Shown: piece by piece, positions 19,193 through 44,703 of the stretch
How the letters are laid out: every line of letters begins with the position of its first letter
How positions within the stretch are numbered: position 1 is the stretch's first letter
IMG/VR virus record: IMGVR_UViG_3300032322_001517
Location: 1-64,000 of that record
Length of the DNA stretch: 64,000 bases
Direction: 5' to 3' (one strand)
Source: a virus
The notes under the pieces: model-generated
What the model saw: the letters and a program-made list of their open reading frames with translations, nothing else
Told to the model about the DNA's origin: nothing
Database searches by the model: none
Position numbers and translations under genes: made by a program

Positions 19193-20301
19193 TAACATAT
19201 CATCCAGATAAATTTGGATTTTATACTGTAGGAAGTTTAAAAACATACAGTAAATTCGAGGCTATCGAATTATCACAAAAAATAAACACTCCTATAGAAT
19301 GGAATTTTAATGATGAAGTTTTTTCTTCAATTGATTGGAAGAAAGAACCTGATATGCCATTGTGGGAGATGTACAAAGATAGAGCAAGACAAATCAGAGA
19401 AGCATATGACTACGTAGTTCTATGGTATTCTGGTGGTAGCGATAGTCATAACATGTTATGCGCTTGGTTAGAGGCTGGTTGTAAACTTGATGAAGTTGCA
19501 ACTACAGTTAACTACGAAGCAACTGGTGACAAAAACAATTATATGAACACTGAGATATATAATGTTGTTATGCCTCATGTTGAACTACTACAACAACGTC
19601 ATGAATTTAAATTTAGAGTTGTTGATATATCACAAATGACTTTAGATTTATTTGATGTTTGGAATACTAATTTCGAGTACAATATAAATTTTCATTTTAG
19701 TCCAAATTATCCTGCAAGATGTTTGCTTCGCGAAAAAATTGAAGATTATAAGAACATCATTAATTCAGGTAAGAAATTGTGTTTTGTTTGGGGTAAAGAA
19801 AAACCTTTTATTAAATACGATAACAAACAACATTTTTTCTTTATTGATAATGTGGACAACGCAGTTAGTCCACATGTACAGAGAAAATATTTTGATGGGT
19901 GGTACGATGAATTGTTTTACTGGACTCCAGATTATCCATTGTTACCTGTAAAAATGTCTCATGTGATAAAAAACTATCTAGATATTAGCGAAGATACAGA
20001 TAATTATTTCATCAACGAAAATAAAGCGATAAATTATTACTCAACAAAATTAGATATGTTTTTAAAACCAAATCATGTTAAGTTATTATTATATCCTAAA
20101 TGGTCTGATATTATTCATGATGCAGGTAAACCTTTATCTTTAACATATAGTCAGAGAGATTTTTGGTTTTTAAGTTCTAAAATGGATAAAAGAAATAGAT
20201 ATATAGATATAACGAATAATTATTTCGATAGATTCCAAACTCGAGATGTTTTTCGAAACGCAGTTATGATTTTTGAGAGTAAAAAATATTACCTTGAATA
20301 A
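19189..20301 (+). CDS. PP-loop ATPase family protein
   Basis: 370 residues. The P-P loop SGGSDS is complete at 81-86, so ATP is probably used to adenylate a substrate, as in tRNA thiolases, 7-cyano-deazaguanine synthase (QueC) and asparagine-synthase-type enzymes. No CxxC or other signature fixes the subfamily; about 280 residues after the loop are unfamiliar. ATGA overlap with the upstream nuclease gene. The tRNA-rich genome makes a tRNA- or base-modification role attractive, but that is inference. Confidence 0.8.
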   Translation: MITYHPDKFGFYTVGSLKTYSKFEAIELSQKINTPIEWNFNDEVFSSIDWKKEPDMPLWEMYKDRARQIREAYDYVVLWYSGGSDSHNMLCAWLEAGCKLDEVATTVNYEATGDKNNYMNTEIYNVVMPHVELLQQRHEFKFRVVDISQMTLDLFDVWNTNFEYNINFHFSPNYPARCLLREKIEDYKNIINSGKKLCFVWGKEKPFIKYDNKQHFFFIDNVDNAVSPHVQRKYFDGWYDELFYWTPDYPLLPVKMSHVIKNYLDISEDTDNYFINENKAINYYSTKLDMFLKPNHVKLLLYPKWSDIIHDAGKPLSLTYSQRDFWFLSSKMDKRNRYIDITNNYFDRFQTRDVFRNAVMIFESKKYYLE

Positions 20302-20306
20302 TTCTA

Positions 20307-20335
20307 TTGACATTTTAGATGGGGTAAGGTAATAT
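20307..20335 (+). promoter_or_regulatory. Early-type promoter before tRNA-Leu and the RNA array
   Basis: TTGACA (20307-20312), 17-nt spacer, TAATAT (20330-20335) followed by ATG. Same form as the promoters at 21115, 32335 and, on the minus strand, 37691, 42529 and 45773. It should transcribe tRNA-Leu, the 34-residue basic gene and RNA units 1-4. Confidence 0.78.
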
Positions 20336-20355
20336 ATGTATATGATGAAGTTTAC

Positions 20356-20432
20356 GCCCACGTAGACCAACAGGCAGAGTCAGGAGACTTAAAATCTCCG
20401 TAGTGTCAGTTCGAATCTGACCGTGGGCACCA
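20356..20432 (+). tRNA. tRNA-Leu(TAA) with short variable loop
   Basis: Acceptor GCCCACG / CGTGGGC, discriminator A, encoded CCA. Anticodon loop CTTAAAA on stem GGAGA / TCTCC gives TAA. T-arm GTCAG / CTGAC. The variable region is only ~5 nt (GTAGT), whereas bacterial tRNA-Leu normally has a long class II arm. Confidence 0.85.
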
Positions 20433-20451
20433 ATTTAACATGGAGTAAATA

Positions 20452-20556
20452 ATGCCGCATCCACATAAGAATCGTCCCCGTAAGGGTCGTCGTAAGGTTG
20501 GCTCTAAGAAGAGGCGTTCTCGTCGTTTGAAGGGTAAGAAGCGCGGAAATCGATAA
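20452..20556 (+). CDS. 34-residue highly basic protein
   Basis: ATG 20452 with GGAG 7-8 nt upstream encodes 34 residues with more than half Lys/Arg and no acidic residue (starts MPHPHKNRPRKGRRK). Such protamine-like peptides bind nucleic acid. It lies between tRNA-Leu and the RNA array, so it may bind those RNAs or phage/host DNA; this is inference. Similar tiny basic genes exist in other T4-like phages, as far as I recall. Confidence 0.75.
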   Translation: MPHPHKNRPRKGRRKVGSKKRRSRRLKGKKRGNR

Positions 20557-20564
20557 ATAATTTT

Positions 20565-20626
20565 GGGATCAATTCAGCATCATCGCCGTAAGGCACTTTT
20601 TTTTTGGAAAAAGCAAAGATGATCCC
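20565..20626 (+). ncRNA. RNA array unit 1 (short Y-RNA-like stem element)
   Basis: Closed by GGGATCA / TGATCCC (7 bp). After the 5' strand comes the shared ATTCAGCA motif; after the 3' strand the shared GTTAAGTTCTAG tail. Inside are GCC-GTAA-GGC and CTTTTT/AAAAAG mini-hairpins. 62 nt. The same closing stem is used by unit 5. Confidence 0.6.
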
Positions 20627-20636
20627 GTTAAGTTCT

Positions 20637-20854
20637 AGGGTAGTTACAGCATACGCCTCATAGCACCGAAGAAGTCTGCGGACTTTCTTCTCCAGTTAGA
20701 TACCTTCGGGTGATCTAACAGACTGTCTAGAGTCTTACTAGAATAGAGTGGTTGATTGTACCTTTACAGCTACTTCGTGGTACGCCATGATAGCCGAGGA
20801 AGGGTTGAGAAGTCCAACTCGATAAACTATCAAAGACGACAATCCACCTACCCT
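20637..20854 (+). ncRNA. RNA array unit 2 (long structured element)
   Basis: Closed by AGGGTAG / CTACCCT. 5' strand is followed by TTACAGCA and 3' strand by GTTTAGTTTTAG, matching the other units. The ~200-nt interior holds several clear hairpins: GAAG-AAGTC/GACTT-CTTC (20669-20690), GTTAGAT/ATCTAAC with an ACC-TTCG-GGT tip (20695-20719) and GTACC/GGTAC (20757-20782). No ORF. Longest unit of the array. Confidence 0.6.
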
Positions 20855-20864
20855 GTTTAGTTTT

Positions 20865-20981
20865 AGGTTCACTACAGCATCAAATTGCAATACCTCCCAT
20901 AAAGGAGAAGTTTCGGTGCGAATCCGAGCGGTCTCATGAGACTGTGGTGTAAGAGTAGCACGCTAAAGCAAATGTGAACCT
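20865..20981 (+). ncRNA. RNA array unit 3: permuted-tRNA (YrlA-like) Y RNA candidate
   Basis: Closed by AGGTTCAC / GTGAACCT (8 bp). Inside, in order: hairpin CTCC/GGAG; a T-arm TTCGG-TGCGAAT-CCGAG (20912-20928); a closed acceptor stem CGGTCT-CATG-AGACTG (20929-20944); a D-arm GTGT/GCAC (20947-20961). This order is a circularly permuted tRNA whose open ends lie where the anticodon stem would be. The tRNA-like module of bacterial YrlA RNAs, which bind Ro60 orthologs, is known to have this kind of layout. A Ro60-like gene follows at 21296. Confidence 0.7.
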
Positions 20982-20991
20982 GTTAAGTTTT

Positions 20992-21110
20992 AGGATTGTT
21001 TCAGCAAACAACTTTCCCAGCCAAAATTGGGACGTAGCTCATTTGGTAGAGCAAGAGTCTAATACACTCTCGGTAGTTGGTTCGATTCCAACCGTTAAAA
21101 AAGCAATCCT
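20992..21110 (+). ncRNA. RNA array unit 4 with a tRNA-like core
   Basis: Closed by AGGATTG / CAATCCT, with the shared TTTCAGCA after the 5' strand. The core has a canonical D-arm (GCTC-ATTTGGTA-GAGC), anticodon arm (AGAGT-CTAATAC-ACTCT) and T-arm (GTTGG-TTCGATT-CCAAC) in normal order. The acceptor stem is degenerate (two mismatches, no CCA), so it is unlikely to be a charged tRNA; formal anticodon AAT. Confidence 0.65.
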
Positions 21111-21114
21111 GTTA

Positions 21115-21143
21115 TTGACTTTAAATACTGTCTAAGGTAATAT
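21115..21143 (+). promoter_or_regulatory. Early-type promoter inside the RNA array
   Basis: TTGACT (21115-21120), 17-nt spacer, TAATAT (21138-21143) followed by AAG. Splits the array: units 1-4 lie upstream and units 5-6 plus the Ro60-like gene downstream. Confidence 0.78.
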
Positions 21144-21158
21144 AAGAATATTGAGTTT

Positions 21159-21211
21159 GGGATCAGTTCAGCAATCAACTGTTTTGCATTTAAACAAACC
21201 AAGTTGATCCC
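21159..21211 (+). ncRNA. RNA array unit 5 (short element)
   Basis: Closed by GGGATCA / TGATCCC as in unit 1, with GTTCAGCA after the 5' strand and GTTAATTCTAG after the 3' strand. A GTTT-TGCATTT-AAAC hairpin with a 7-nt loop is inside. 53 nt, starting about 10 nt after the expected start site of the internal promoter. Confidence 0.6.
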
Positions 21212-21220
21212 GTTAATTCT

Positions 21221-21275
21221 AGATTGACTGCCGCAACTAAACAATTACACTTGAAATGTAACCAAAGTTCAATCT
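21221..21275 (+). ncRNA. RNA array unit 6 with anticodon-arm-like hairpin
   Basis: Closed by AGATTGA / TCAATCT; 5' motif is TGCCGCA (variant of TTCAGCA) and the 3' tail GTTAA. The interior hairpin TTACA-CTTGAAA-TGTAA has a 7-nt loop like that of tRNA-Ser(TGA). 10 nt later lies the GGAG of the Ro60-like gene. Confidence 0.58.
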
Positions 21276-21295
21276 GTTAAACATGGAGAAATGAA

Positions 21296-22735
21296 ATGAC
21301 TACTTTTGCTAATGCTGTTCGTAATCAGGAAGCTCGTACTGCCAATGGCATGAAGGCTCGTGCTTCTACTGCTAATGCTTGTGTTGATCTGTTCTTCAAG
21401 ATCGGTGCATCACGTGGCAAGAACATCGTTCCTGACTTCACTGCTGCTTATGTTCAGGACCGTGATATCGCTTCACGTATTGCTCTTTGGGCTCGTGATG
21501 CTCGTGGTGGTGCTGGTGAGCGTAAGCTGTTCCGCGATATCCTCAAGGAACTTGCTGTTCATGACGCAGATCGTGCGATTGCTCTTATGCAAAAGGCTCC
21601 TTATGTTGGTCGCTGGGATGACTTGCTTGTATTTGAGGATGAAGGTGTTCTTCAGCACTACGCTTTTGAAATGATTCGTCATGCGCTCGAAGACAACAAC
21701 GGTCTTTGTGCCAAGTGGATGCCTCGTAAGGGTCCAGTAGCTGCAAAGCTACGTGCTCATCTTGGTTGGTCGCCAAAGCGTTACCGCAAGACTCTTGTGT
21801 CTTTGACCAAGGTTGTTGAGCAGCAGATGTGTGCTAATCAGTGGGATGAGATTAACTTCAATCATGTTCCCTCAGTAGCTTCTGCTCGTTACAAGAAGGC
21901 GTTTGCTCGTCATACTGAAAAGTATAAGGAGTGGACTACTGCTCTTGTTTCTACCGATCCGAAGGTTAAGGAGACTGTAAAGGTTAACGCTGGTGCAGTT
22001 TACCCTTACGATGTTCTGAAGGGTCTTATCAACGTTGGTTATCATGCCAACTATGATAAGTCAAACCTTGATCATATTGTTGCTCAGTGGGAAGCTCTGC
22101 CGAACTTCGTTGGCGATGCAAATATTTTACCTTTGGTAGACGTTTCTGGTTCAATGACTTCTAAGGCAGGTGGGCTCAACTCCAAGTCCGTTGTGACTTG
22201 TCTGGATGTTTCTGTTTCGCTGGGTCTTTATCTGGCAGACAAGAACAAGGGTAAGTTCAAGGATACGTTCTTGACTTTCTCTAGCGCCCCTCAGCTGCTG
22301 AACCTTCGTGGCAACGTTGTCGAGAAGATCAAGCAAATGGTTACTTCAGAATGGCAAATGAGCACTGACCTTCACAAGGCAATGGACAAGATCCTTAGCG
22401 TTGCTATTCAGAACACTGTTCCTCAGGAGGAAATGCCTGAGATGCTTCTGATCCTGTCAGATATGCAGTTCAACCAGTGCACTCGCTTTGATGATTCTGC
22501 AATGCAGATGATTCATCGCAAGTTCGAAAACGCTGGTTACAAGGTTCCTGCTATCGTGTTCTGGAATCTGAATGCTGCGGATAATGTTCCTGTTAAGCAC
22601 GATGCTTCTGGTGTTGCGCTTGTATCAGGGTTCTCGCCTTCTATCGTAAAGTCTATCCTGTCTGCGGATATGGAACAGTTTACTCCTGAAGGTATCATGA
22701 TGAAGACTATTATGTCGGAGCGTTACTCGCTCTGA
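21296..22735 (+). CDS. Ro60/Rsr-like RNA-binding protein (TROVE/DUF2828 with vWA domain)
   Basis: 479 residues. N-terminal ~265 residues are an all-helical repeat domain with the RDARGGAGERKLFRDIL block typical of DUF2828/TROVE proteins; C-terminal von Willebrand A domain has an intact MIDAS: D282-x-S284-x-S286 (VDVSGSM), T357 and D389. Ro60 orthologs form a ring that binds misfolded RNA and Y RNAs and, in bacteria, works with PNPase in RNA processing. The array of structured RNA units immediately upstream makes a phage Ro-type RNP likely. Phage relatives are often labelled only DUF2828 or vWA. CGT-rich codon use suggests strong expression. Confidence 0.82.
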   Translation: MTTFANAVRNQEARTANGMKARASTANACVDLFFKIGASRGKNIVPDFTAAYVQDRDIASRIALWARDARGGAGERKLFRDILKELAVHDADRAIALMQKAPYVGRWDDLLVFEDEGVLQHYAFEMIRHALEDNNGLCAKWMPRKGPVAAKLRAHLGWSPKRYRKTLVSLTKVVEQQMCANQWDEINFNHVPSVASARYKKAFARHTEKYKEWTTALVSTDPKVKETVKVNAGAVYPYDVLKGLINVGYHANYDKSNLDHIVAQWEALPNFVGDANILPLVDVSGSMTSKAGGLNSKSVVTCLDVSVSLGLYLADKNKGKFKDTFLTFSSAPQLLNLRGNVVEKIKQMVTSEWQMSTDLHKAMDKILSVAIQNTVPQEEMPEMLLILSDMQFNQCTRFDDSAMQMIHRKFENAGYKVPAIVFWNLNAADNVPVKHDASGVALVSGFSPSIVKSILSADMEQFTPEGIMMKTIMSERYSL

Positions 22736-22839: not shown

Positions 22840-23535
22840 ATGATGTATCAATCTACTACATTTTCTAAAGTCCAGTATGATGAAGGACTTCGCAGTTTTA
22901 TGCTGCAAGTTTACAATTACATGACTTTTGCGCTTGCTCTTAGTGGACTTGTTTCGCTAGGTATCTCTATGTCCCCTGCTCTGATGGCAGTGATTTGGGG
23001 TACTGCATTGAAGTGGGTTGTTATTCTTGCGCCACTGGCAATGTCTATTGGCTTCGCATTTATGATTGAAAAGATTAATTCTAATACAGCAAAGCTGTTT
23101 CTGTTTGCTTTTGCTCTAGCGATGGGTTTGAGCCTGAGTTCAATCTTTGCTATCTATAAGATGGGCAGCATTATTCACGTATTTTTCATTTCAGCGGCTA
23201 CATTTGGTGCTGCTTCTTTGTATGGGTATACAACGAAGGCTGACTTGACTAAGATGGGTTCATTCCTGATTATGGGTGTTATCGGTCTTGTTATTGCTGG
23301 TCTTGTAAACCTTTTCCTACAAAGTTCAATGTTTGCCTTTGTTATTAGCTGTCTTGCAGTTCTTATCTTTACTGGTCTAACTGCATATGACACTCAGCAG
23401 ATTAAGCAGATGTACGATGAAACAGAAGGCGAAGAACAAAAGAAGGCTGGAGTTATTGGAGCTCTAATGCTTTATATGGACTTCATTAACATCTTCATCA
23501 ATCTGCTTCAAATTATCGGAGATAAGAAAGAATGA
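22840..23535 (+). CDS. Bax inhibitor-1/YbhL family membrane protein
   Basis: 231 residues, seven hydrophobic helices and the family signature TAYDTQQIK near 198-206. The N-terminal DEGLRSFMLQVYNYMTFALAL block matches alphaproteobacterial members. TMBIM proteins are membrane leak channels (calcium in known cases). Here it could damp membrane stress or delay lysis, which is inference. AGGAG lies 4 nt before ATG 22840. Overlaps the next gene by 4 nt. Likely acquired from a host. Confidence 0.9.
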   Translation: MMYQSTTFSKVQYDEGLRSFMLQVYNYMTFALALSGLVSLGISMSPALMAVIWGTALKWVVILAPLAMSIGFAFMIEKINSNTAKLFLFAFALAMGLSLSSIFAIYKMGSIIHVFFISAATFGAASLYGYTTKADLTKMGSFLIMGVIGLVIAGLVNLFLQSSMFAFVISCLAVLIFTGLTAYDTQQIKQMYDETEGEEQKKAGVIGALMLYMDFINIFINLLQIIGDKKE

Positions 23536-26113: not shown

Positions 26114-26278
26114 ATGAATACTGATGAAATAGTAAAAAACGCAGACTTAGCATGGTGCATCGATATCTTTCAAAGAATCGACGAAATCTTAAAAAAGACA
26201 AATGTTTCAGTAAGCGATCTAAGTCAAGTTCACTGGTTGGTTAAGCAAGGATTAAAGGTGAAGCGCGAAGATGAATGA
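26114..26278 (+). CDS. Small helical hypothetical protein
   Basis: 54 residues from ATG 26114 with GGAG 8 nt upstream; overlaps the ClpP gene start by 8 nt. Helical, charged, with DLAWCIDIFQRIDEIL. No family recognised. First gene after the terminator. Confidence 0.7.
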   Translation: MNTDEIVKNADLAWCIDIFQRIDEILKKTNVSVSDLSQVHWLVKQGLKVKREDE

Positions 26279-26834
26279 TAAAGAAGATAAGTTTGTAACA
26301 ATACCTTCCATAGAAGATCACCACTATTACTTGTTTAATAAAGATTTCACTGCTGATTCTTGTGGGGATGCTATCGCTTTTATTCTTGAGCGCAATTTGA
26401 TGCCTAAGAATAAGCCCAAGCAGATTAAGATGATTATTAATTCTTATGGTGGCGCTGTTGATTCTGCTTTTGCCTTAATTGATACCATGAAGGGTTCTCC
26501 GATTCCAATCTACACATATGGATTAGGATGCATAGCCAGTTGCGGATTGCTAACATTTATTGCAGGTAAAAAGGGTAATAGGTTTATCACTCGTAACACT
26601 TCTATCCTTTCTCATCAGTTCAGTTGGGGTTCTTTTGGTAAAGAACATGAACTCTTCGCTTCTGTTAAAGAGTTTAACAACACGCACAAGAGAATGGTCG
26701 AGCATTATCAAAAGTGCACTGGCATGAAAGAAAAGGATATTAAAAAGTATTTACTTCCACCTGAAGATGTTTGGCTTACCGCTAAAGAAGCAGTTAAATA
26801 TGGCATAGCTGATGAGATTGTTGACTTTTACTGA
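26271..26834 (+). CDS. clpP: ClpP-family serine protease
   Basis: 187 residues. ClpP fold with INSYGGAVDSAFALID, nucleophile S90 in LGCIASCGLL and H115 in LSHQFSW. The residue after the Ser is Cys rather than the usual Ala. ClpP degrades unfolded proteins with a Clp ATPase; none is seen here, so it may use host ClpX/ClpA or process phage proteins. Related clpP genes occur in T4-like phages of alphaproteobacteria and cyanobacteria. Confidence 0.9.
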   Translation: MNDKEDKFVTIPSIEDHHYYLFNKDFTADSCGDAIAFILERNLMPKNKPKQIKMIINSYGGAVDSAFALIDTMKGSPIPIYTYGLGCIASCGLLTFIAGKKGNRFITRNTSILSHQFSWGSFGKEHELFASVKEFNNTHKRMVEHYQKCTGMKEKDIKKYLLPPEDVWLTAKEAVKYGIADEIVDFY

Positions 26835-36632: not shown

Positions 36633-36716
36633 TGGCGGAGGGTAAAGGAATCGAACCATCAACCTTTCGGTGGCAGAGTTTTCAAGACTCGTTGAGCACC
36701 ATGCTCGCTACCCTCC
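36633..36716 (-). tRNA. tRNA-Ser(TGA)
   Basis: Acceptor GGAGGGT / ACCCTCC, discriminator G, encoded CCA; loop CTTGAAA gives TGA. Long class II variable arm present. Reads TCA. Confidence 0.95.
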
Positions 36717-36720
36717 AAAT

Positions 36721-36796
36721 TGGCACCCCACCGAGGACTCGAACCCCGCTCGTCGGTTTTGGAGACCGATACATCGCCCCTGAATGCTTGTGGGAT
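36721..36796 (-). tRNA. tRNA-Trp(CCA)
   Basis: Loop CTCCAAA on stem TCGGT / ACCGA gives CCA; acceptor ATCCCAC / GTGGGGT, discriminator G, encoded CCA end. Confidence 0.93.
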
Positions 36797-36802
36797 ATAC
36801 TA

Positions 36803-36810
36803 TATTTATA
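36803..36810 (-). promoter_or_regulatory. Late-promoter-like TATAAATA inside the tRNA cluster
   Basis: Exact TATAAATA on the minus strand between tRNA-Ser(GCT) and tRNA-Trp. It could give late transcription of tRNA-Trp, tRNA-Ser(TGA) and the oxygenase gene. Confidence 0.55.
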
Positions 36811-36900
36811 TGGCGGAAGGTGAGAGATTCGAACTCTCGGTAGAGTTTACCCTACGTCTCGTTAGCAGTGAGGTGCCTTAAACCACTCGGCCAACCTTCC
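36811..36900 (-). tRNA. tRNA-Ser(GCT)
   Basis: Acceptor GGAAGGT / ACCTTCC, discriminator G, encoded CCA; loop CTGCTAA gives GCT; long variable arm. The anticodon stem has an A-C mismatch next to the loop. Confidence 0.9.
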
Positions 36901-36909
36901 GTGTTAAAA

Positions 36910-36987
36910 TGGTCTGCGTGGAGAGATTTGAACTCCCGTTATTCTTCGTCCCAAACGAAGTGCCATACCAGGCTAGGCGACACGCAG
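36910..36987 (-). tRNA. tRNA-Pro(TGG)
   Basis: Loop TTTGGGA on stem CTTCG / CGAAG gives TGG; acceptor CTGCGTG / CACGCAG, A, CCA. Its first 15 nt are also the last codons and stop of the HNH gene. Confidence 0.95.
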
Positions 36988-37452
36988 ATATTTTTTTAAA
37001 TATGCATCGATAATAGGTTGAACTTCATCTTTATATCTACTATGCACATATTGATGATGTGTAGGACACAAAGGTACAAGGTTCTCAGGTCTATTATCTT
37101 TCTTGTTCTCATTTACATGATGAGCCGCAACAATTTTACTTTCTTCACACACCAAACATTTTTTTCCGTGATGATAAAAACATGTCGATTGATACGACTC
37201 TTCTTTCCAATTACCATTATTTATGCCTGTTCTAAAATACTTATTGGAACATGAGTACGAACAAGTAGCACTTTTTTTACTGTGTATTTTTTTACAAACA
37301 GGACACTCTTTTTGATTTTGTGGATTAGATCTACAAGATCTTTCATGTTTGTTTATGTTTGCTAATGATGTTTCTTTAGCACAATGTACACATTTTCTTT
37401 TTTCGTTATTAGCTCTGTTTAAATTAGATAGAGAATTTTTGTTAACTTGCAT
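36973..37452 (-). CDS. HNH endonuclease with zinc fingers
   Basis: 159 residues. Several CxxC-type zinc pairs (CVHC, CPVC, CSYSC, CLVC) and an HNH core AAHHVNENKKDNRPENLVPLC...HH. Typical free-standing homing endonuclease of T4-like phages. It has its own exact late promoter 19 nt upstream and ends inside tRNA-Pro, as expected of a mobile gene inserted in the tRNA cluster. Confidence 0.88.
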   Translation of the reverse strand: MQVNKNSLSNLNRANNEKRKCVHCAKETSLANINKHERSCRSNPQNQKECPVCKKIHSKKSATCSYSCSNKYFRTGINNGNWKEESYQSTCFYHHGKKCLVCEESKIVAAHHVNENKKDNRPENLVPLCPTHHQYVHSRYKDEVQPIIDAYLKKYLRVA

Positions 37453-37470
37453 AAATTACCTCCATACAAG

Positions 37471-37478
37471 TATTTATA
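37471..37478 (-). promoter_or_regulatory. T4-type late promoter for HNH gene
   Basis: Exact TATAAATA on the minus strand, 19 nt before the HNH ATG (37452); GGAGG-type ribosome site lies between. Confidence 0.75.
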
Positions 37479-37505
37479 AAAACTCAAATCTCAAACTCTA
37501 AACTC

Positions 37506-37582
37506 TGGTGCTGAAGATTGGCATCGAACCAATTTTAACTGGGGTATGAGTCCAGTGCGATAGCCAATACCGCCCCATCAGC
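37506..37582 (-). tRNA. tRNA with CAT anticodon (Met or Ile2)
   Basis: Acceptor GCTGATG / CTTCAGC (one T-T mismatch), discriminator A, CCA. Anticodon arm CTGGA-CTCATAC-CCCAG gives CAT with an A-C mismatch at 31-39. Confidence 0.85.
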
Positions 37583-37588
37583 ATATTA

Positions 37589-37675
37589 TGGTGGGTAGAG
37601 AAGGATTCGAACCTCCAACGCCTATAAGGAACGAATTTACAGTCCGTCGCAGTCCACCGTCTCTGCAGTCTACCC
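37589..37675 (-). tRNA. tRNA-Tyr(GTA)
   Basis: Acceptor GGGTAGA / TCTACCC, A, CCA; loop CTGTAAA gives GTA; long class II variable arm typical of bacterial Tyr. Confidence 0.94.
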
Positions 37676-37690
37676 AAACTTTATACTCTT

Positions 37691-37719
37691 ATATTACCCT
37701 AGACCGGAATTAAAGTCAA
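37691..37719 (-). promoter_or_regulatory. Early promoter in tRNA cluster
   Basis: Minus strand: TTGACT (37719-37714), 17-nt spacer beginning TTAATTCCGG, TAATAT (37696-37691). Sits between tRNA-His and tRNA-Tyr. Nearly the same sequence as 42529-42557 and 45773-45801. Confidence 0.85.
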
Positions 37720-37720
37720 C

Positions 37721-37796
37721 TGGTACCCACTCTTGGATTCGAACCAAGTCTTCAAGATCCACAATCTCGCGTGCTGACCAACAACACTAAGTGAGC
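37721..37796 (-). tRNA. tRNA-His(GTG)
   Basis: Loop TTGTGGA on stem CGAGA / TCTTG gives GTG; acceptor GCTCACT / AGTGGGT, CCA encoded. Confidence 0.93.
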
Positions 37797-37801
37797 ATAA
37801 C

Positions 37802-37878
37802 TGGTGCCCGTGGAGGGAGTCGAACCCCCAACACTCGGAGTTTGAAGCCGATGCCTCTGCCAATTGGACTACACGGGC
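37802..37878 (-). tRNA. tRNA-Leu(CAA), short variable loop (anticodon less certain)
   Basis: Acceptor GCCCGTG / CACGGGC, A, CCA. Best stem TCGGC / TCCGA around loop TTCAAAC gives CAA (Leu). The alternative loop CTTCAAA would read TCA (opal) but leaves the stem unpaired. Variable loop is short, as in the other phage Leu tRNAs here. Confidence 0.72.
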
Positions 37879-37883
37879 GAAAA

Positions 37884-37959
37884 TGGTGCTGCTGGAGAGG
37901 CTCGAACTCCCGACTTGCTGATTACTAATCAGCTACTCTACCAACTGAGTTACAGCAGC
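37884..37959 (-). tRNA. tRNA-Thr(AGT)
   Basis: Acceptor GCTGCTG / CAGCAGC, A, CCA; stem GCTGA / TCAGC with loop TTAGTAA gives AGT. A at position 34 is unusual for bacterial Thr. Confidence 0.9.
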
Positions 37960-37963
37960 GATT

Positions 37964-38040
37964 TGGTGCCCCAGGTCAGATTCGAACTGACAACCTTCGG
38001 TTTCTAAGACCGACACCTCTACCAGTTGGGCTACAGGGGC
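37964..38040 (-). tRNA. tRNA-Leu(TAG), short variable loop
   Basis: Acceptor GCCCCTG / CTGGGGC (last pair aside), A, CCA; loop CTTAGAA on CGGT / ACCG gives TAG. Class I-like variable loop. Its first 10 nt overlap the end of the 38031 gene. Confidence 0.88.
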
Positions 38041-39029
38041 TTGACTTTTTTCAATTCTGCAATTATTGCAGATGTTTTAGAACTTCTATCATTTTGCTCA
38101 GTGAGATTAGCTATCTCAATTTCTATCAAGTCATTCAAAATTCGAGGATCATAATTGTTCGAATTGGTGATCAACGTCTGAACTCTGTTTTCCATATTAC
38201 AAAATTCATATACAAGATGTTCAGAATATTCTCCGATCAAACCCTTTACAGTTTCTCGGCTAATGTCAAGATTATGTTTAAAGTATTTTGTTCCGTATAT
38301 AGAATGATACAGCCCAGCAAGTAAAACATCATCAGTAAGTTTTTGATTTTCTAAAATCATCATTGTATTAAATAAATGTTCGAAAAAAGATTTACCACTA
38401 TGTTTTATATTAGTAGTGTTGTTCTGAACAAATTTGACAGGTTCGCTAATAATTCTAGGATCAAATGTTTTAAAAACAAGAACTGTTCTAAGAACATTAC
38501 AAATTCTTGATAACGGACGAGCAGCATGGAGAACATCAGAATCAAAAACTAGAACCCTGCCATATTTAGGTAATATCGAAGCAGAAATTTCTTTATCATC
38601 ATCGAAAAGAACTGTTTCTCCACACCAATTAATATCCCATTCTTTGTTTAAATAAAGAATAACAGTTTCAGAAAGAGCCTTTTTTCCATGAATTACGTTG
38701 ATAGCTGAGTCATCAACATGAGCATAACCATCTGTGCCATAAGTATATCCATTAACATATACTCTCATTAATGCTCTATGGCCAATGCTTGCGCAAATAA
38801 TATTCCAAAGATCATTTATTTCTGTAGCACTACTCATCGTTGGCAATTTAGCTAGATCGCATGGAAACCTTTGAGAATTAGAAAATATTTTGCGATTCCA
38901 ATGACCTTGGTCGAATGTAAGATGAGTACTTGATTTCCAACCATATCTTAAACCAGTTTGGATATATTTTCTATTAACTACTTCTAATAAAAATAAATGT
39001 TCTTGATCAAGTTGAAAAGTGCCAATCAT
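38031..39029 (-). CDS. 2OG-Fe(II) oxygenase fused to an HD-like domain
   Basis: 332 residues. N-terminal ~195 residues: oxygenase with H104-V-D106 (GYAHVDDSAI), distal H168 (VLHAARP) and Arg at 171/181. C-terminal ~130 residues: helical domain with SFFEHLFNTMMIL (H219) and LLAGLYHSIYGT (H242), like HD-type phosphohydrolases (I recall DUF6817). The fusion implies sequential chemistry on one substrate. Substrate unknown. Stop codon lies inside tRNA-Leu(TAG). Confidence 0.82.
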   Translation of the reverse strand: MIGTFQLDQEHLFLLEVVNRKYIQTGLRYGWKSSTHLTFDQGHWNRKIFSNSQRFPCDLAKLPTMSSATEINDLWNIICASIGHRALMRVYVNGYTYGTDGYAHVDDSAINVIHGKKALSETVILYLNKEWDINWCGETVLFDDDKEISASILPKYGRVLVFDSDVLHAARPLSRICNVLRTVLVFKTFDPRIISEPVKFVQNNTTNIKHSGKSFFEHLFNTMMILENQKLTDDVLLAGLYHSIYGTKYFKHNLDISRETVKGLIGEYSEHLVYEFCNMENRVQTLITNSNNYDPRILNDLIEIEIANLTEQNDRSSKTSAIIAELKKVKPL

Positions 39030-39048
39030 ATTATACTTCCTTTTATTA

Positions 39049-39123
39049 TGGAGCGGGTAGTCGGGATCGAACCGACGACCTTCACGTTGGCAACGTGACG
39101 CACTACCGCTGTGCTATACCCGC
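39049..39123 (-). tRNA. tRNA-Gly(GCC)
   Basis: Acceptor GCGGGTA / TACCCGC, T, CCA; stem TCACG / CGTGA, loop TTGCCAA gives GCC. Confidence 0.95.
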
Positions 39124-39128
39124 ATTAA

Positions 39129-39205
39129 TGGTGATCAGGGAAGGACTCAAACCCTCAACCTTCGCGTTCGTAGCGCGATGCTCTATTCAGTTGAGCTACC
39201 TGATC
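39129..39205 (-). tRNA. tRNA-Arg(ACG)
   Basis: Acceptor GATCAGG / CCTGATC, A, CCA; stem TCGCG / CGCGA, loop CTACGAA gives ACG. Only Arg tRNA seen in the window. Overlaps the 3' part of the 39155 gene. Confidence 0.95.
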
Positions 39206-39364
39206 ATCGAAAGGATCAATACCCTTTCTGTAATACTTATTGTAAAAGAAAAGCTCTGCCATATCAGAAGGATATTCTTTAAACTTCTTACGCTCGGCAG
39301 AGCTTATATTGTCAAACCAATTCCAAAATTGTTTCTTGAACTCTGGCTTGTCGAATACGTCCAT
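39155..39364 (-). CDS. Small conserved phage protein running into tRNA-Arg
   Basis: 69 residues; ATG 39364 overlaps the TAA of the methyltransferase gene (TAATG). MDVFDKPEFKKQFWNWFDNI and SDMAELFFYNKYYRK resemble a small phage protein family of unknown function. The last ~17 codons are read through tRNA-Arg, so the natural C-terminus may be non-essential. Confidence 0.68.
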   Translation of the reverse strand: MDVFDKPEFKKQFWNWFDNISSAERKKFKEYPSDMAELFFYNKYYRKGIDPFDDQVAQLNRASRYEREG

Positions 39365-39948
39365 TAGATATTAGAAAGGGTTTTATTTTGCTTGAAACAA
39401 AACCAGCAAGTGGAAGGTGTAACACCAACACTTTCATTGGCTAGATGCTCTGTAACAGCCTTTCTGATTCCAGGATATGGCTCAGCGAAATCATGTCCAC
39501 CAATAAGACCACCAACCTTTACCTTTGGGAACCACGCCTTTAGATCTCCAAGGAAAGACTTGTAGTCATGAGAAGCATCAATGAATACAAAGTCGAGAGA
39601 CTCATCTTCATAAAGGCTGGCTGACTCAGTGCTATCTCCCTTGATAGCAGTATAGAGACCTTCAACTGGCTTCATGTTATTGACGAACACTTCCATCAAC
39701 TTTCCTGCCTGGTTGTCTCTATCAAGCATCTGGCCAGGTTCAATAACAGAACCAGTGAAGTTGTCAATACAATCTAGCTTGATGTTCTTTCCACTGTTAA
39801 CAATTTCTACAGCAAGGAAGGCTGAACTCTGACCCTTCCAAGTTCCAATCTCAACAAAGTGAGCATCCTGCGGTGCAGTTTCTACTGCATATGCAAACAT
39901 GTCAGGGTAATTAAACCAACCTTCAACTGTGTGATAAAAATGATCCAT
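39364..39948 (-). CDS. Class I SAM-dependent methyltransferase
   Basis: 194 residues from ATG 39948 with AGGAGAG upstream. SAM-binding loop VEIGTWKGQSSAFLA (~32-46), acidic LDCIDNF, and FVFIDASHDYKSFLGDL typical of the Methyltransf_24 group (cephalosporin-hydroxylase-like sugar/lipid methyltransferases). Target unknown; it is not a recognisable DNA methyltransferase (no DPPY or PCQ motif). Confidence 0.82.
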   Translation of the reverse strand: MDHFYHTVEGWFNYPDMFAYAVETAPQDAHFVEIGTWKGQSSAFLAVEIVNSGKNIKLDCIDNFTGSVIEPGQMLDRDNQAGKLMEVFVNNMKPVEGLYTAIKGDSTESASLYEDESLDFVFIDASHDYKSFLGDLKAWFPKVKVGGLIGGHDFAEPYPGIRKAVTEHLANESVGVTPSTCWFCFKQNKTLSNI

Positions 39949-39960
39949 CAATCTCTCCTA

Positions 39961-40632
39961 TTAATCCGTATCCATAACAATGTCGCCAGAAACAGCAATT
40001 CGATAATCATCTGACGTATAGAACGGATTCACCGAATGACCCAAACCCTTGGGGAACACGCAAATAATTCCTTCGTATTCCTTATCAACAGGAACTGGGT
40101 GACTATGAACCTGACCCAAAATATCTGTGTAATAGAAGGTGAACATCGAAGCGCACTTATAAGTTGCGTTCGGGAATACTGCCATCTCATCTTCAATATT
40201 ATAAGGGATTTTGGTCCAAATAACAAACGAATAAACACCGCCATGAATATGATGAGGATGAAACTCATGCTTCTTCTGGAAGTTTGCCCATACATCCTTG
40301 AACTTGAACTTCCTAGGATGAGAAGCAACGTTCACGACCTGATTGATAAAGTGTGGTCGAGAATGGTGATCGTGCATTTGAATCAAGCTACAAATATAAT
40401 CCAACAGTACAGGAGCTAGTTCCTTTGTAAAATCAAATTCCTTAGCAATGTTAGCTGTTAGCTTGTACCCTGCTTCCATACCACCTTCAAAATCCTTGTC
40501 GACAAGGCTGTTAGTTACATCCCTAACCTTGGACATAATTTCTTCAGGAACACGATGGAATACTACACCGTTATTGGGGAACGTATAGAAAAGAGCTTGG
40601 TCGCCCTGTAAACTCGAAATTGCATCTGCCAT
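39961..40632 (-). CDS. 2OG-Fe(II) oxygenase-like protein
   Basis: 223 residues from ATG 40632 (AAAGGTGA upstream). His-rich HEFHPHHIHGGVYSFVIW at 122-139 could hold the iron pair (H125-H130), with a distal GLGHSVNPFYTSDDYRIAVSGD (His near 206, Arg near 217). Matches the jelly-roll layout of T4-like phage prolyl-hydroxylase-type proteins. Third such oxygenase in 5 kb. Confidence 0.75.
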   Translation of the reverse strand: MADAISSLQGDQALFYTFPNNGVVFHRVPEEIMSKVRDVTNSLVDKDFEGGMEAGYKLTANIAKEFDFTKELAPVLLDYICSLIQMHDHHSRPHFINQVVNVASHPRKFKFKDVWANFQKKHEFHPHHIHGGVYSFVIWTKIPYNIEDEMAVFPNATYKCASMFTFYYTDILGQVHSHPVPVDKEYEGIICVFPKGLGHSVNPFYTSDDYRIAVSGDIVMDTD

Positions 40633-40663
40633 TATTATCACCTTTCATTATAGATATGTCTTA

Positions 40664-40837
40664 TCAGACATTATTATTTAGTAACATCTTTGATTCGTTA
40701 ATTTCTTTTAGATGTTCTTTCTTCAACTCACGCTCACGAAAGTCCAAACAAACACAACAACGACAACGCATGAGCTTGTATTTTTTGCCCTTCATATTAA
40801 CGTTACCAGCGTGATTTGCAACAGGACTTTTTGGCAT
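40664..40837 (-). CDS. Small Cys-rich basic protein
   Basis: 57 residues, AGAGGT 6 nt before ATG 40837. Basic middle with a CRCCVC cluster (about 25-30) that may bind zinc, then a charged helix. No family recognised. Confidence 0.65.
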   Translation of the reverse strand: MPKSPVANHAGNVNMKGKKYKLMRCRCCVCLDFRERELKKEHLKEINESKMLLNNNV

Positions 40838-40848
40838 ATGATTACCTC

Positions 40849-40980
40849 TTAGAGATCATACAGAAGTCTTGCACCATAGTGTTGCAAAGCATCTGCGAAA
40901 AGAACAGCGTCGTAGTAAGATAGAAACTCCTGAACGAGATCACCAGTAACATCGTCAGGAATGACAACGATCCAACTCAT
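40849..40980 (-). CDS. 43-residue hypothetical protein
   Basis: ATG 40980 with AAGGAAGTG upstream; sequence starts MSWIVVIPDDVTGDLVQEF and is amphipathic. Directly follows tRNA-Cys. No family recognised. Confidence 0.6.
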   Translation of the reverse strand: MSWIVVIPDDVTGDLVQEFLSYYDAVLFADALQHYGARLLYDL

Positions 40981-40998
40981 ATTCACTTCCTTTTGTTA

Positions 40999-41076
40999 TG
41001 GAGGGGAAAACGAGACTCGAACTCGCATTCGTAGGTTTTGCAGACCCTGCCGTAACCAATTCCGGCGCACTTCCCC
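40999..41076 (-). tRNA. tRNA-Cys(GCA)
   Basis: Acceptor GGGGAAG / TTTCCCC, T, CCA; loop CTGCAAA gives GCA. Confidence 0.93.
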
Positions 41077-41090
41077 TTATACATATTTAT

Positions 41091-41166
41091 TGGCTGGGGA
41101 TCAAGGACTCGAACCTCGGACATCCAGAGTCAGAGTCTGGCGTTCTACCAACTGAACTAATCCCCA
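41091..41166 (-). tRNA. tRNA-Gln(CTG)
   Basis: Acceptor TGGGGAT / ATCCCCA, G, CCA; stem CCAGA / TCTGG, loop CTCTGAC gives CTG. Confidence 0.94.
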
Positions 41167-41170
41167 ATAA

Positions 41171-41246
41171 TGGCGCAACTAACGAGTATCGATCTCGCCA
41201 AACCTGGATTGACAGTCCAGTGGGTTCACCTGCTCCCTCTAGTTGC
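41171..41246 (-). tRNA. tRNA-Asp(GTC)
   Basis: Acceptor GCAACTA / TAGTTGC, G, CCA; stem CTGGA / TCCAG, loop CTGTCAA gives GTC. Confidence 0.94.
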
Positions 41247-41251
41247 ATTAA

Positions 41252-41328
41252 TGGTTGCGAGAGGTTGGACTTGCACCAACGGTCTCCAGTTTATGAGACT
41301 GGCGAGATAGCTACTTCTCTACTCCGCA
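41252..41328 (-). tRNA. tRNA with CAT anticodon (Met type)
   Basis: Stem CCAGT / ACTGG, loop CTCATAA gives CAT. Acceptor TGCGGAG pairs with CTCTCGCA only if one T is bulged; T1-A72 at the end. No G:C triplet of an initiator. Encoded CCA. Confidence 0.85.
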
Positions 41329-41338
41329 ATAAATCTGT

Positions 41339-41403
41339 GGTGGGTTAATTGAGGTCCACCCACCTAAAACCTATCACCTTTGCATTATACCCACGCAGCG
41401 TGG
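41339..41403. other. Structured spacer in the tRNA cluster
   Basis: The 116-nt gap between tRNA-Met and tRNA-Thr holds a 7-bp hairpin GGTGGGT / ACCCACC (41339-41364) and a CCACG / CGTGG hairpin (41391-41403). No gene is seen. Could be a processing signal or small RNA. Confidence 0.45.
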
Positions 41404-41444
41404 ACGACGCCTACCTATCGTCCGGTGACCCGACATTTCAGTTC

Positions 41445-41520
41445 TGGTGCTGCTGGAGAGAATCGAACTCCCGACCTGATCATTACAAGTGAACTGCTCT
41501 ACCAACTGAGCTACAACAGC
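41445..41520 (-). tRNA. tRNA-Thr(TGT)
   Basis: Acceptor GCTGTTG / CAGCAGC, A, CCA; loop CTTGTAA gives TGT. Acceptor close to tRNA-Thr(AGT), suggesting duplication. Confidence 0.93.
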
Positions 41521-41527
41521 AAATCGT

Positions 41528-42124
41528 TTAAATATTATTGAATGATCGAGGAGCAACCTGACCGCCAGAAGCCTGACCATCCGGATAAAGATCAACTCCA
41601 CGTGCTACATCAACACAATTAGAAATCTCTGTGAGAGTCCTAGAAGAACCAGTCAAATCGATTTCTGCATTCTGAATTGAACCAGGCATCACAAAGAATA
41701 CCCTCGAGTTATTAGCGAACAATGGAATGAACTGTTCCTTGATAATATTTCGAATAACGATAGTGTTCTTATTGACTAGGCGATACTCAAAATTCAAACC
41801 AGAAATCTGACCAGAACGATTATGGAAATTCATACGCATACGGTAATTACCCGGAGGATCTGAAATATTCCATGTGTTATTACGCAAGAAGATATAAAGT
41901 TCACCATCAGCAAGATCACGGATCAACTGAAAACGAGAACCATCTCGCCAATTGATTTCTGCGTAACATGCAGGGTTATCATTCTTTTCAACGTTAGCAG
42001 TCACACCATAAACATAGTATGGACCTGGACGAACGTCAACATTAAAAAACTGTTGAGATGCTGCAAAAGCTGAACTCGTGAAAAGCATCGCAGCAAGTGT
42101 TCCACTAATAATCTTCTTCATCAT
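41528..42124 (-). CDS. Secreted protein of unknown function
   Basis: 198 residues from ATG 42124 (AAAGGTGA upstream). Clear signal peptide (MMKKIISGTLAAMLFTSSAFA). Mature part is beta-rich with two Cys (C52, near 172) that could form a disulfide. Resembles small periplasmic proteins of alphaproteobacteria; no domain recognised. An exported phage protein in the tRNA cluster may affect superinfection or the envelope (inference). Confidence 0.75.
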   Translation of the reverse strand: MMKKIISGTLAAMLFTSSAFAASQQFFNVDVRPGPYYVYGVTANVEKNDNPACYAEINWRDGSRFQLIRDLADGELYIFLRNNTWNISDPPGNYRMRMNFHNRSGQISGLNFEYRLVNKNTIVIRNIIKEQFIPLFANNSRVFFVMPGSIQNAEIDLTGSSRTLTEISNCVDVARGVDLYPDGQASGGQVAPRSFNNI

Positions 42125-42204
42125 TTTATTCACCTTTGCAGTAGTTAAAAGATATGGGCTAACCGTGGACCCACGCGAGCTTATTACGTAGCCACCCGAA
42201 GAGC

Positions 42205-42272
42205 TTGACACGCTATCGCCAACGACAGTCGATAGTAACGGACGATTTGAGTCGCTGTGTTGCCCGTGTCAA
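42205..42272 (-). ncRNA. Structured RNA element next to tRNA-Ala
   Basis: An 8-bp perfect closing stem (TTGACACG 42205-42212 with CGTGTCAA 42265-42272) encloses a second hairpin CTATCG / CGATAG (42213-42235). It lies 2 nt beyond the CCA end of tRNA-Ala in a 150-nt gene-free gap (42125-42274). Shape resembles the stem-closed units of the 20.6 kb array, but the shared TTCAGCA/GTTAA motifs are not seen. Confidence 0.5.
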
Positions 42273-42274
42273 CT

Positions 42275-42350
42275 TGGTGGAGACATGCGGGATCGAACCG
42301 CAGACCTGAAGCTTGCAAAGCTACCGCTCTCCCAACTGAGCTATGTCCCC
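42275..42350 (-). tRNA. tRNA-Ala(TGC)
   Basis: Acceptor GGGGACA / TGTCTCC, A, CCA; loop TTTGCAA gives TGC. Confidence 0.94.
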
Positions 42351-42354
42351 AATA

Positions 42355-42429
42355 TGGTAGTCCGTGACAGGGTTGAACTGCCGACCTTCTCCGTGTAAAG
42401 GAGTTGCTCTTCCACTGAGCTAACGGACC
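42355..42429 (-). tRNA. tRNA-Val(TAC)
   Basis: Acceptor GGTCCGT / ACGGACT, A, CCA; stem CTCC / GGAG, loop TTTACAC gives TAC. Confidence 0.94.
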
Positions 42430-42433
42430 AAAC

Positions 42434-42510
42434 TGGCTCGCATGGTAGGATTCGAACCTACAGTGGCCTGATTAACAGTCAGGTCCCGATACCAATTCGG
42501 GTTCATGCGA
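42434..42510 (-). tRNA. tRNA-Asn(GTT)
   Basis: Acceptor TCGCATG / CATGCGA, G, CCA; stem CCTGA / TCAGG, loop CTGTTAA gives GTT. Confidence 0.95.
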
Positions 42511-42528
42511 ATGAACTTTATATTACTT

Positions 42529-42557
42529 ATATTACTCTAGACCGGAATTAAAGTCAA
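42529..42557 (-). promoter_or_regulatory. Early promoter before Asn-Val-Ala tRNAs
   Basis: Minus strand: TTGACT (42557-42552), 17-nt spacer starting TTAATTCCGG, TAATAT (42534-42529). Overlaps the stop codon of the carbamoyltransferase gene. Confidence 0.85.
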
Positions 42558-44077: not shown

Positions 44078-44098
44078 AAGTTATCCTATGTTTTTTAT

Positions 44099-44106
44099 TA
44101 TTTATT
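44099..44106 (-). promoter_or_regulatory. Late-promoter-like AATAAATA
   Basis: AATAAATA on the minus strand 22 nt before the carbamoyltransferase ATG; one base off TATAAATA. Tentative. Confidence 0.4.
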
Positions 44107-44182
44107 TGGTAGACCGTGAGGGATTCGAACCCCCGTCAAGAGATTAAGAGTCTCCTGCTAAAACCAACTCAGCTAACGGTCC
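44107..44182 (-). tRNA. tRNA-Lys(CTT)
   Basis: Acceptor GGACCGT / ACGGTCT, A, CCA; stem GGAGA / TCTCT, loop CTCTTAA gives CTT. Confidence 0.93.
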
Positions 44183-44187
44183 GTGTT

Positions 44188-44265
44188 TGGTCCTCTGTAT
44201 CGGATTTGAACCGATGCTCTCCGCGCTTGAAAGGCGGGTATGTTTGACCGCTACACCAACAGAGG
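44188..44265 (-). tRNA. tRNA-Glu(TTC)
   Basis: Acceptor CCTCTGT / ACAGAGG, A, CCA; loop CTTTCAA gives TTC; one C-C mismatch in the anticodon stem. Confidence 0.91.
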
Positions 44266-44317
44266 AAATTCTAAGACCCGTAACTTGATGAGGCGCCAGC
44301 GGAGTCACGGGCGCAAA

Positions 44318-44391
44318 TGGTGCTTCTGGATGGTATCGATCCAACGTCTCTCGATTATCAGTCGAGTGCTCTACCTTTGAGCTACAGAAGC
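44318..44391 (-). tRNA. tRNA-Ile(GAT)
   Basis: Acceptor GCTTCTG / CAGAAGC, A, CCA; stem CTCGA / TCGAG, loop CTGATAA gives GAT. The 52-nt gap before tRNA-Glu holds a CCCGT/ACGGG hairpin. Confidence 0.95.
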
Positions 44392-44392
44392 A

Positions 44393-44468
44393 TGGTGCTT
44401 CGCCACGGAATCGAACCGCATCCTCTGGTTCTTCAGACCAGCGTACGCACCAGCTATACCAGCGAAGC
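44393..44468 (-). tRNA. tRNA-Phe(GAA)
   Basis: Acceptor GCTTCGC / GCGAAGC, A, CCA; stem CTGGT / ACCAG, loop CTGAAGA gives GAA. Only 1 nt from tRNA-Ile. Confidence 0.95.
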
Positions 44469-44473
44469 ATTAA

Positions 44474-44556
44474 TGGAGGACTGGGTGGGACTCGAACCCA
44501 CGATGTTGTATAGCAGATTAAAAGTCTGCGCCGTTCGCCACTACGGTAACCAGTCC
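44474..44556 (-). tRNA. tRNA-Lys(TTT)
   Basis: Acceptor GGACTGG / CCAGTCC, T, CCA; stem GCAGA / TCTGC, loop CTTTTAA gives TTT. Variable region is unusually long (~11 nt). Confidence 0.93.
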
Positions 44557-44627
44557 AATTTATGTGGCTTACGACTTAACACAGACTACATCCATCGACT
44601 TTCGTCTTTGGCTATACACATCAATCT

Positions 44628-44703
44628 TGGCTCGGGGTGATGGGCTCGAACCACCAACACACAGATTCAAAGTCTGTAGTTCTACCAATTGAACTAACCC
44701 CGA
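44628..44703 (-). tRNA. tRNA-Gln(TTG)
   Basis: Acceptor TCGGGGT / ACCCCGA, G, CCA; stem ACAGA / TCTGT, loop CTTTGAA gives TTG. First tRNA after the 44.9 kb promoter. Confidence 0.95.

Follow-up and report, generated by a model that had tools for sequence, protein, structure and literature searches.

The DNA analyzed here comprises positions 1 to 64,000 of the virus record IMGVR_UViG_3300032322_001517, and this 64,000-nt stretch as a whole is termed the window. It contains an array of six tandem RNA units (20565-21275), which is located between a tRNA-Leu gene and the gene for a protein with a Ro60-like predicted fold (21296-22735), with a gap to the latter of 20 nt. The units with their parts, the promoter-like sites, and the gene for the Ro60-like protein are on the plus strand. 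The units are structured, covarying RNAs with modular interiors that mimic tRNA, and they are linked to and co-occur with the gene for the Ro60-like protein. The array showed no coding potential, with interruptions in all six frames, and searching it against Rfam at permissive thresholds gave only tRNAs and chance matches. A search of 13 related loci likewise gave nothing but tRNA among the 150 matches listed, and some units carry an annotation as a tRNA or pseudo-tRNA gene. The main subject is unit 3 (20865-20981), which was assigned to a permuted tRNA mimic within an 8-bp closing stem on the basis of its fold, covariation, a pairing test, and a covariance model (R1).

The closing stem of unit 3 is formed by AGGUUCAC (20865-20872) paired with GUGAACCU (20974-20981), and the bulge 3' of this stem carries the motif CAGCA (20875-20879), which is (nearly) invariant across units. 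The fold then gives a hairpin CUCC-CAUAAA-GGAG with 4 bp and a 6-nt loop (20894-20907), at the place of the anticodon arm of the relatives. The three arms that follow are supported by both fold and covariation. These are a T-arm with the loop UGCGAAU and G at position 55 (20912-20928), a closed acceptor-like hairpin of 6-7 bp with the loop CAUG (20928-20945), and a D-arm with the loop AAGAGUA (20947-20961), in which A18 G19 replace GG as in other G55 units. The coordinates and fold had been proposed in an earlier sequence-only reading and proved exact, being those of the minimum free energy (MFE) and centroid structure, with strong covariation in every arm of 28 units. The order it gave, from T-arm to closed acceptor to D-arm, was borne out and is identical to the order seen in real YrlA RNAs when these are read with the Rfam model. 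The arms that it named are all present, but it overlooked the hairpin 5' of the T-arm, which is an anticodon arm in most relatives. It had also placed the ends of the permuted molecule at the anticodon position; the actual new ends lie between the D-arm and the anticodon arm, the latter being retained in most relatives.

When unit 3 was folded alone, the MFE and centroid structures were the same, the energy z-score was -2.9, and none of 200 shuffled sequences folded as well. The MFE significance is modest by itself, and the comparative test is the decisive one. For this, unit 3 was aligned with 27 relatives (28 units in total), and 18 pairs in the closing stem, T-arm, acceptor, and D-arm were scored. 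Pairing was found in 99.4% of cells compared to 71.0% in shuffles, changes on both sides of a pair were found in 153 cells compared to 53, and the covariation score was 0.770, whereas shuffles reached 0.210 and slid partners no more than 0.16. Related sequences are not independent events, yet the slid controls preserve the relatedness and still fail. In a second pairing test, units were selected by the sequence motifs of the T-arm and D-arm only, and the 7-nt acceptor strands between them were scored. These strands pair at six or more of the seven positions in 39 of 45 units (dealt-out partners, mean 3.3 and maximum 9), and 34 distinct acceptor stems occur among the permuted units selected in this way. 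Unit 3 was also matched by R1 (32.6 bits, E 8e-6) while being outside its training set; this model was built from 48 short units and represents the ends and short interiors only.

The closing stem proved to be part of an end shared by the units, consisting of a stem of 7-9 bp with the form AGGNNNN/NNNNCCU or, alternatively, GGG/CCC; a bulge that terminates in CAGCA or CCGCA; and the tail GUU. Linkers of about 10 nt separate adjacent units of the array. Among 218 units found by their end motifs alone, all four free stem positions pair in 177 (dealt-out mean 20.1, maximum 34), and 40 different stem sequences are represented. Scanning related loci (817 kb) for such stems detected 245 units compared to 2 in shuffled sequence. 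In the array itself, unit 1 (20565-20626) has the closing stem GGGAUCA/UGAUCCC, AUUCAGCAU, and a GUUAA tail and was detected by the stem scan and by R1 (50.7 bits, E 7.6e-11; a training sequence). Unit 2 (20637-20854), also from the stem scan, has the closing stem and CAGCA bulge of the array around a large structured interior; its length of 218 nt is conserved at 218-219 nt in homologs (L001:295-512 and L003:3681-3899; L numbers denote the related loci). Large units of this kind, of 200-280 nt, also occur elsewhere and form a further class. Unit 4 (20992-21110) was matched by R1 at 36.3 bits (E 7e-7) and is outside the training set, whereas units 5 (21159-21211; stem scan, 54.7 bits) and 6 (21221-21275; 54.1 bits) are training sequences. 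Promoter-like sites were observed upstream of tRNA-Leu and the array (TTGACA-17-TAATAT, 20307-20335; 10/12 in a consensus scan, which is not functional evidence) and upstream of units 5-6 and the Ro-like gene (TTGACT-17-TAATAT, 21115-21143; 9/12). A very basic 34-codon open reading frame (ORF) without a Pfam match (MPHPHKNRPRKGRRKVGSKKRRSRRLKGKKRGNR) is located between tRNA-Leu and unit 1 (20452-20556).

The interiors follow several designs. Of the 227 distinct short units (45-70 nt), 144 contain a hairpin of 5 bp with a 7-nt loop (shuffle mean 21, maximum 36), and in 114 the loop is of the anticodon type, with U33 and a purine at position 37 (shuffle mean 3.1, maximum 7). The loop consensus is C32 U33 NNN A37 A38, and unit 6 provides an example in UUACA-CUUGAAA-UGUAA (21245-21261; anticodon UGA). 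Over all unit lengths, the anticodons were UUU (29), UGU (28), UCU (18), UGA (17), GUA (12), GGA (8), and GUU (8), with others fewer. The triplets UUU, UGU, UCU, and UGA make up 55% of unit anticodons compared to 11% for the tRNAs of the same loci. In most unit arms, position 36 is A or U and A37 A38 come next; A or U at this position was found in 148 of 168 arms (88%) compared to 1308 of 2270 tRNAs (58%) of the same loci. The idea that a unit copies the anticodon of the tRNA just upstream was rejected, as the two agreed in only 2 of 77 cases.

The second design is a tRNA body whose arms keep the normal order but which lacks a normal acceptor stem. It is represented by unit 4, in which a D-arm, an anticodon arm (AAU), and a T-arm follow one another inside the unit. 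Both ARAGORN and Rfam called the interior (21027-21101) tRNA-Ile(AAU), the latter at 48.4 bits, but 2 of the 7 acceptor pairs are nonstandard and CCA is absent. The called element, being the inside of unit 4, probably does not work as a tRNA.

The third design is the permuted tRNA, which runs from an anticodon arm through a variable region and a T-arm to a 7-bp acceptor stem closed by a loop, and then through U-A or U-G to a D-arm. When the permuted units were un-rotated in silico, ARAGORN called a tRNA in 33 of 41, compared to none before rotation and none when shuffled. Un-rotated unit 3 gave no ARAGORN call, which is attributed to the drift of its anticodon-arm hairpin to a 6-nt loop. U55 of the T-loop occurs together with a D-loop GG in 35 units, and G55 together with AG in 4, the sequence of unit 3 included; such covariation is what contact between the two loops, as in tRNA, would produce. 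A further module, an H-type pseudoknot, was found in 31 of the 227 short units (shuffle mean 0.08, maximum 1), with covariation (e.g., GCTA/TAGC, GACT/AGTC, and GAAC/GTTC). Units with this pseudoknot (GCTA ... TGTC TAGC GACA) were observed at L119:7694-7752 and in L146, L163, L139, and others.

The simplest origin for the permuted units would be the joining of tRNA ends or of adjacent tRNA genes. The junction of two tandem tRNA genes already holds the permuted order, and in several permuted units a discriminator-CCA is preserved where the acceptor loop begins, namely ACCAACUUUAU in a relative of unit 3 (L003), GCCAUCUAU (L143), and GCCAUUUAU (L210). The same property is a warning with regard to weak scores with the YrlA model, since the order T-arm, acceptor, D-arm arises between adjacent tRNA genes, and the tRNA junctions of this record reach up to 24.1 bits.

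To place these units among known RNAs, real YrlA RNAs (RF02553) were retrieved and aligned to the Rfam model. They share with the permuted units the order of T-arm, closed acceptor stem, two nucleotides (UA or UG), and D-arm, the pairing of the ends in a terminal stem, a position beside the gene for a Ro60-fold protein, and the possibility of tandem arrangement. They differ in that YrlA of the rsr-yrlBA-rtcBA operons has the ends GGCGAAUGC...UUGUCGCC, whereas the phage units have AGGNNNN...CAGCAA...NNNNCCUGUU. A stem replaces the anticodon arm in YrlA, while the phage units usually retain the arm, and other phage units bear different modules. The terminal sequence GGCGAAUGC...UUGUCGCC is not present in the closing stem of unit 3, and RtcB was not found in this record. 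The sequence-only reading had suggested a search with the Rfam models, and unit 3 matched neither YrlA (gathering score, 69 bits) nor the vertebrate-type Y RNA (RF00019) up to E = 10, the latter being searched over 20300-21300. Filing unit 3 as YrlA was thus rejected, as both the score and the terminal stem fail, and membership in YrlA is not supported. Sister units beside Ro-like genes also fall below the gathering score, with YrlA being their best Rfam family in Mycobacterium phage AvadaKedavra (L090:4528-4649; 39.8 bits, E 1.5e-7) and Enterococcus phage EfV12-phi1 (L346:5245-5366; 34.3 bits, E 5e-6). The tie to Ro60 and Y RNAs claimed in the same reading consequently stands through the layout, the sister units, and the neighbour's Ro60-like fold, but not as a family match of unit 3. 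That the units work like a Y RNA is well supported. Y RNAs are said to have been reported in mycobacteriophages by Chen in 2014, and bacterial Y RNAs reportedly undergo tRNA-like modification according to the same work.

The neighbouring gene (21296-22735) encodes 479 amino acids, with a helical N-terminal part and a part resembling a von Willebrand factor A (vWA) domain with the motif DVSGSM. The protein matched DUF2828 and DUF7788 in Pfam and PHROG 850 (RNA-binding protein). The Pfam TROVE model (PF05731) gave no match, and neither did a sequence profile of the protein against the PDB. In contrast, its predicted structure (predicted local distance difference test score 76, predicted template modelling [TM] score 0.69) had as best PDB match in Foldseek a TROVE domain (9kop; E 4.9e-9, TM 0.52), followed by Ro60 of Thermus phage phiLo (1.2e-7), Ro with misfolded RNA (2.1e-6), and human Ro60 (5.5e-5). 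From these structure matches of the model, the neighbour is deduced to be a Ro60-fold protein overlooked by these sequence models, sharing with Ro60/Rsr the predicted fold and a vWA part with DxSGSM. The statement that the units are encoded beside a Ro60 protein thus comes from the structure comparison and not from a TROVE sequence match. The next gene (22840-23535), adjoining the Ro-like gene, encodes a phage protein of the Bax inhibitor-1 family (PF01027).

The association of the units with this gene was observed in several surveys, in which most loci were metagenome contigs. Among 77 loci retrieved by the Ro-like protein, a unit is present upstream in 73, and the last unit lies within 100 nt of the Ro-like start codon in 72 and within 30 nt in 38. 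Conversely, for records found by the motif alone, DUF7788 was present in 26 of 43 with units compared to 1 of 15 without, and in records of at least 40 kb the corresponding values were 18 of 21 and 1 of 4. Of the cultured phages, 12 of the 16 that have the gene gave R1 matches somewhere in the genome, compared to 0 of the 6 that lack it (Fisher p 0.003). Those with matches include KVP40 (49.0 bits), LAh_8 (nine), Ochrobactrum OC (four), Listeria LMTA-57 (three), and Citrobacter Ci1, while no R1 match was obtained in the gene-less phages T4, SPO1, P-SSM2, V5 (rv5), phiKZ, and G1. The motif occurs in cultured phages of Listeria, Mycobacterium, Aeromonas, Vibrio, and others, spanning Gram-positive and Gram-negative hosts. 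A viral search with the 5' motif alone gave 120 stretches, 102 of them with full units, and 305 units in total. The same motif, searched in bacterial and archaeal genomes (257 billion bases), gave 118 stretches with 7 chance-like stem matches, as is expected of a motif with just 15 fixed bases, and the best R1 score on those stretches was 23.6 bits. As far as searches of open-licence literature reach, what is new is the closing motif common to the units and how widely it occurs, together with the three designs (anticodon arm, acceptor-less tRNA body, and complete permuted tRNA) and the statistics that support them.

About one third of the distinct units start a few nucleotides, mostly 5-6, past the 3' end of a tRNA, which suggests that the units are probably cut out of tRNA-rich transcripts. 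Oversized tRNA-like genes of 113-121 nt were observed just downstream of the Ro-like gene in Citrobacter phage Ci1 (L092:4895-5125) and Cronobacter phage S13 (L353:7896-8138). The one in Ci1 has a long insert in the anticodon region with ACAGCAA and is possibly the reverse arrangement, with the unit stem inside a tRNA. The window also contains about 24 minus-strand tRNA genes at 36633-44703, one of which was called tRNA-SeC(TCA), and two further tRNAs detected by Rfam only (41002-41076 and 41174-41246).

A published parallel is Listeria phage CKA15, in which the DUF2828 protein CKA15_055 was found in mature virions and highly transcribed noncoding RNAs upstream of CKA15_055 were suggested to be Y RNAs (PMC12282133). 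These RNAs share with the units the protein family and the position relative to its gene; they differ in that the publication gives neither a structure nor a motif for them (PMC12282133). If distances to the gene in a relative are taken as a guide, the region with the highest abundance (26,236-26,727) is farther upstream than the three CAGCA units of LMTA-57 and may be another RNA. In LMTA-57, a stretch without annotated genes (L089:2420-3040), between a tRNA and a small ORF, lies at a distance from the DUF2828 gene like that of the CKA15 transcript, and the CAGCA motif is not present in it.

The array is proposed to be a phage version of the Ro60/Y-RNA system that presents tRNA decoys via the Ro-like protein, an interpretation given slightly better than an even chance. 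Y RNAs combine a Ro-binding stem with an effector module, and by analogy the neighbouring Ro-like protein quite likely binds the units, with the constant stem, CAGCA bulge, and GUU tail as its predicted site. The interior would be an interchangeable module imitating tRNA, either as an anticodon arm, as an acceptor-less body, or as a rotated whole tRNA (unit 3), the closed acceptor end of which would make charging impossible. The complexes would present the mimics to tRNA-acting enzymes and thereby occupy those enzymes; such action of the modules as decoys or baits is rated somewhat short of even. The most likely use would be the decoying of tRNA-targeting enzymes during infection, host anticodon nucleases in particular, with nucleases as the specific target being put forward tentatively.

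The decoy interpretation was drawn from the closed acceptor ends and from the displayed anticodons, among which UUU and UGU dominate and GUU is present. The PARIS nuclease AriB has UUU and UGU as its two principal targets and GUU as the third, and expression of the T5 versions of tRNA-Lys, tRNA-Thr, and tRNA-Asn inhibits PARIS (PMC12409363). The T5 tRNAs thus share with the units the prominence of these three anticodons; they differ in being functional and cleavage resistant, whereas the phage units are not chargeable. A role as competitive inhibitor or decoy has been proposed earlier for the tRNA domain of YrlA (PMC7790460). In its most specific form, the proposal is a counter-defence in which a Ro60-like ring loaded with uncharged tRNA look-alikes (Lys, Thr, Arg, Ser, Tyr, and Asn arms, others, and rotated tRNAs) would soak up anticodon nucleases, and this form must be regarded as speculative, a shade more so than the choice of nucleases as target. 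Since the Listeria homolog was found in virions, the Ro-like ribonucleoprotein might be carried in with the phage.

Several observations weigh against this interpretation. The displayed anticodons also include UCU, UGA, and GUA, cleavage of which by AriB is unreported, and the bias for A or U at position 36 could stem from being recognized by A37-modifying enzymes or from the AT-rich composition of the phages. A clear anticodon arm is often absent from the short units of some cultured phages (e.g., those of Ochrobactrum and Aeromonas), and 4 of the 16 gene-bearing cultured phages had no R1 match in the whole-record search, although a looser scan gave candidates beside the gene in several. A Ro-like fold alone is also no proof of Y-RNA binding.

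The alternative that survives best, though it is considered unlikely, is that the units are scaffolds tethering the Ro-like ring to a nuclease, with the phage steering RNA decay or quality control and the mimics serving to dock or gate. In Deinococcus, a Y RNA tethers Rsr to PNPase. The Ro60 fold of the neighbour and the two-part architecture of a Ro stem and an effector module, as in Y RNAs, are consistent with this, and a tether role was suggested for the homolog of Listeria phage CKA15 (PMC12282133). However, it leaves the diversity of displayed anticodon arms and the bare anticodon-arm units unexplained. Somewhat less likely again, the modules could be baits for tRNA-modifying or tRNA-processing enzymes, redirecting host tRNA maturation to the dense phage tRNA set. 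A/U36 ahead of A37 A38 is the context of A37 modifications (t6A and i6A substrates), so the composition of the unit arms given above agrees with this alternative, as do the preserved T-arm and D-arm features and the units starting 5-6 nt past tRNA 3' ends. Against it, base composition may account for part of the bias at position 36, and neither the pseudoknot module nor the large units fit.

It is improbable that the gene-proximal unit is a cis-acting leader for translational autocontrol of the Ro-like protein with the other units being duplicates. The short distance between the last unit and the start codon is what such a leader would have, but most phages have several units, many of these are distant among tRNA genes, and their interiors differ in design. 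The least probable explanation by far is that the units are tRNA genes in decay, or folds arising by chance in a tRNA region rich in AT: although the units sit among tRNA genes, some acceptor loops keep a vestigial CCA, and tandem tRNAs alone reach 24 bits with the YrlA model, the common closing stem, the covariation in every arm (by which an ordinary decayed tRNA was rejected), and the absence from shuffled and bacterial DNA all argue against it, so that decay may describe the origin of the units but not their present state.

The preferred interpretation, of tRNA decoys presented by a Ro-like protein, would if true amount to a widespread RNA-based counter-defence of phages and to a new class of RNA decoy against tRNA-cutting immunity. 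To our knowledge, studies of bacterial Y RNAs have covered few systems, and the tRNA-like domain of these RNAs is without a settled use. The Y-RNA principle is found again here in hundreds of phage RNAs, whose tRNA modules are exchangeable and in many cases consist of a bare anticodon arm, and the long-standing question of the role of Ro60 and Y RNAs would become testable in lytic phages.
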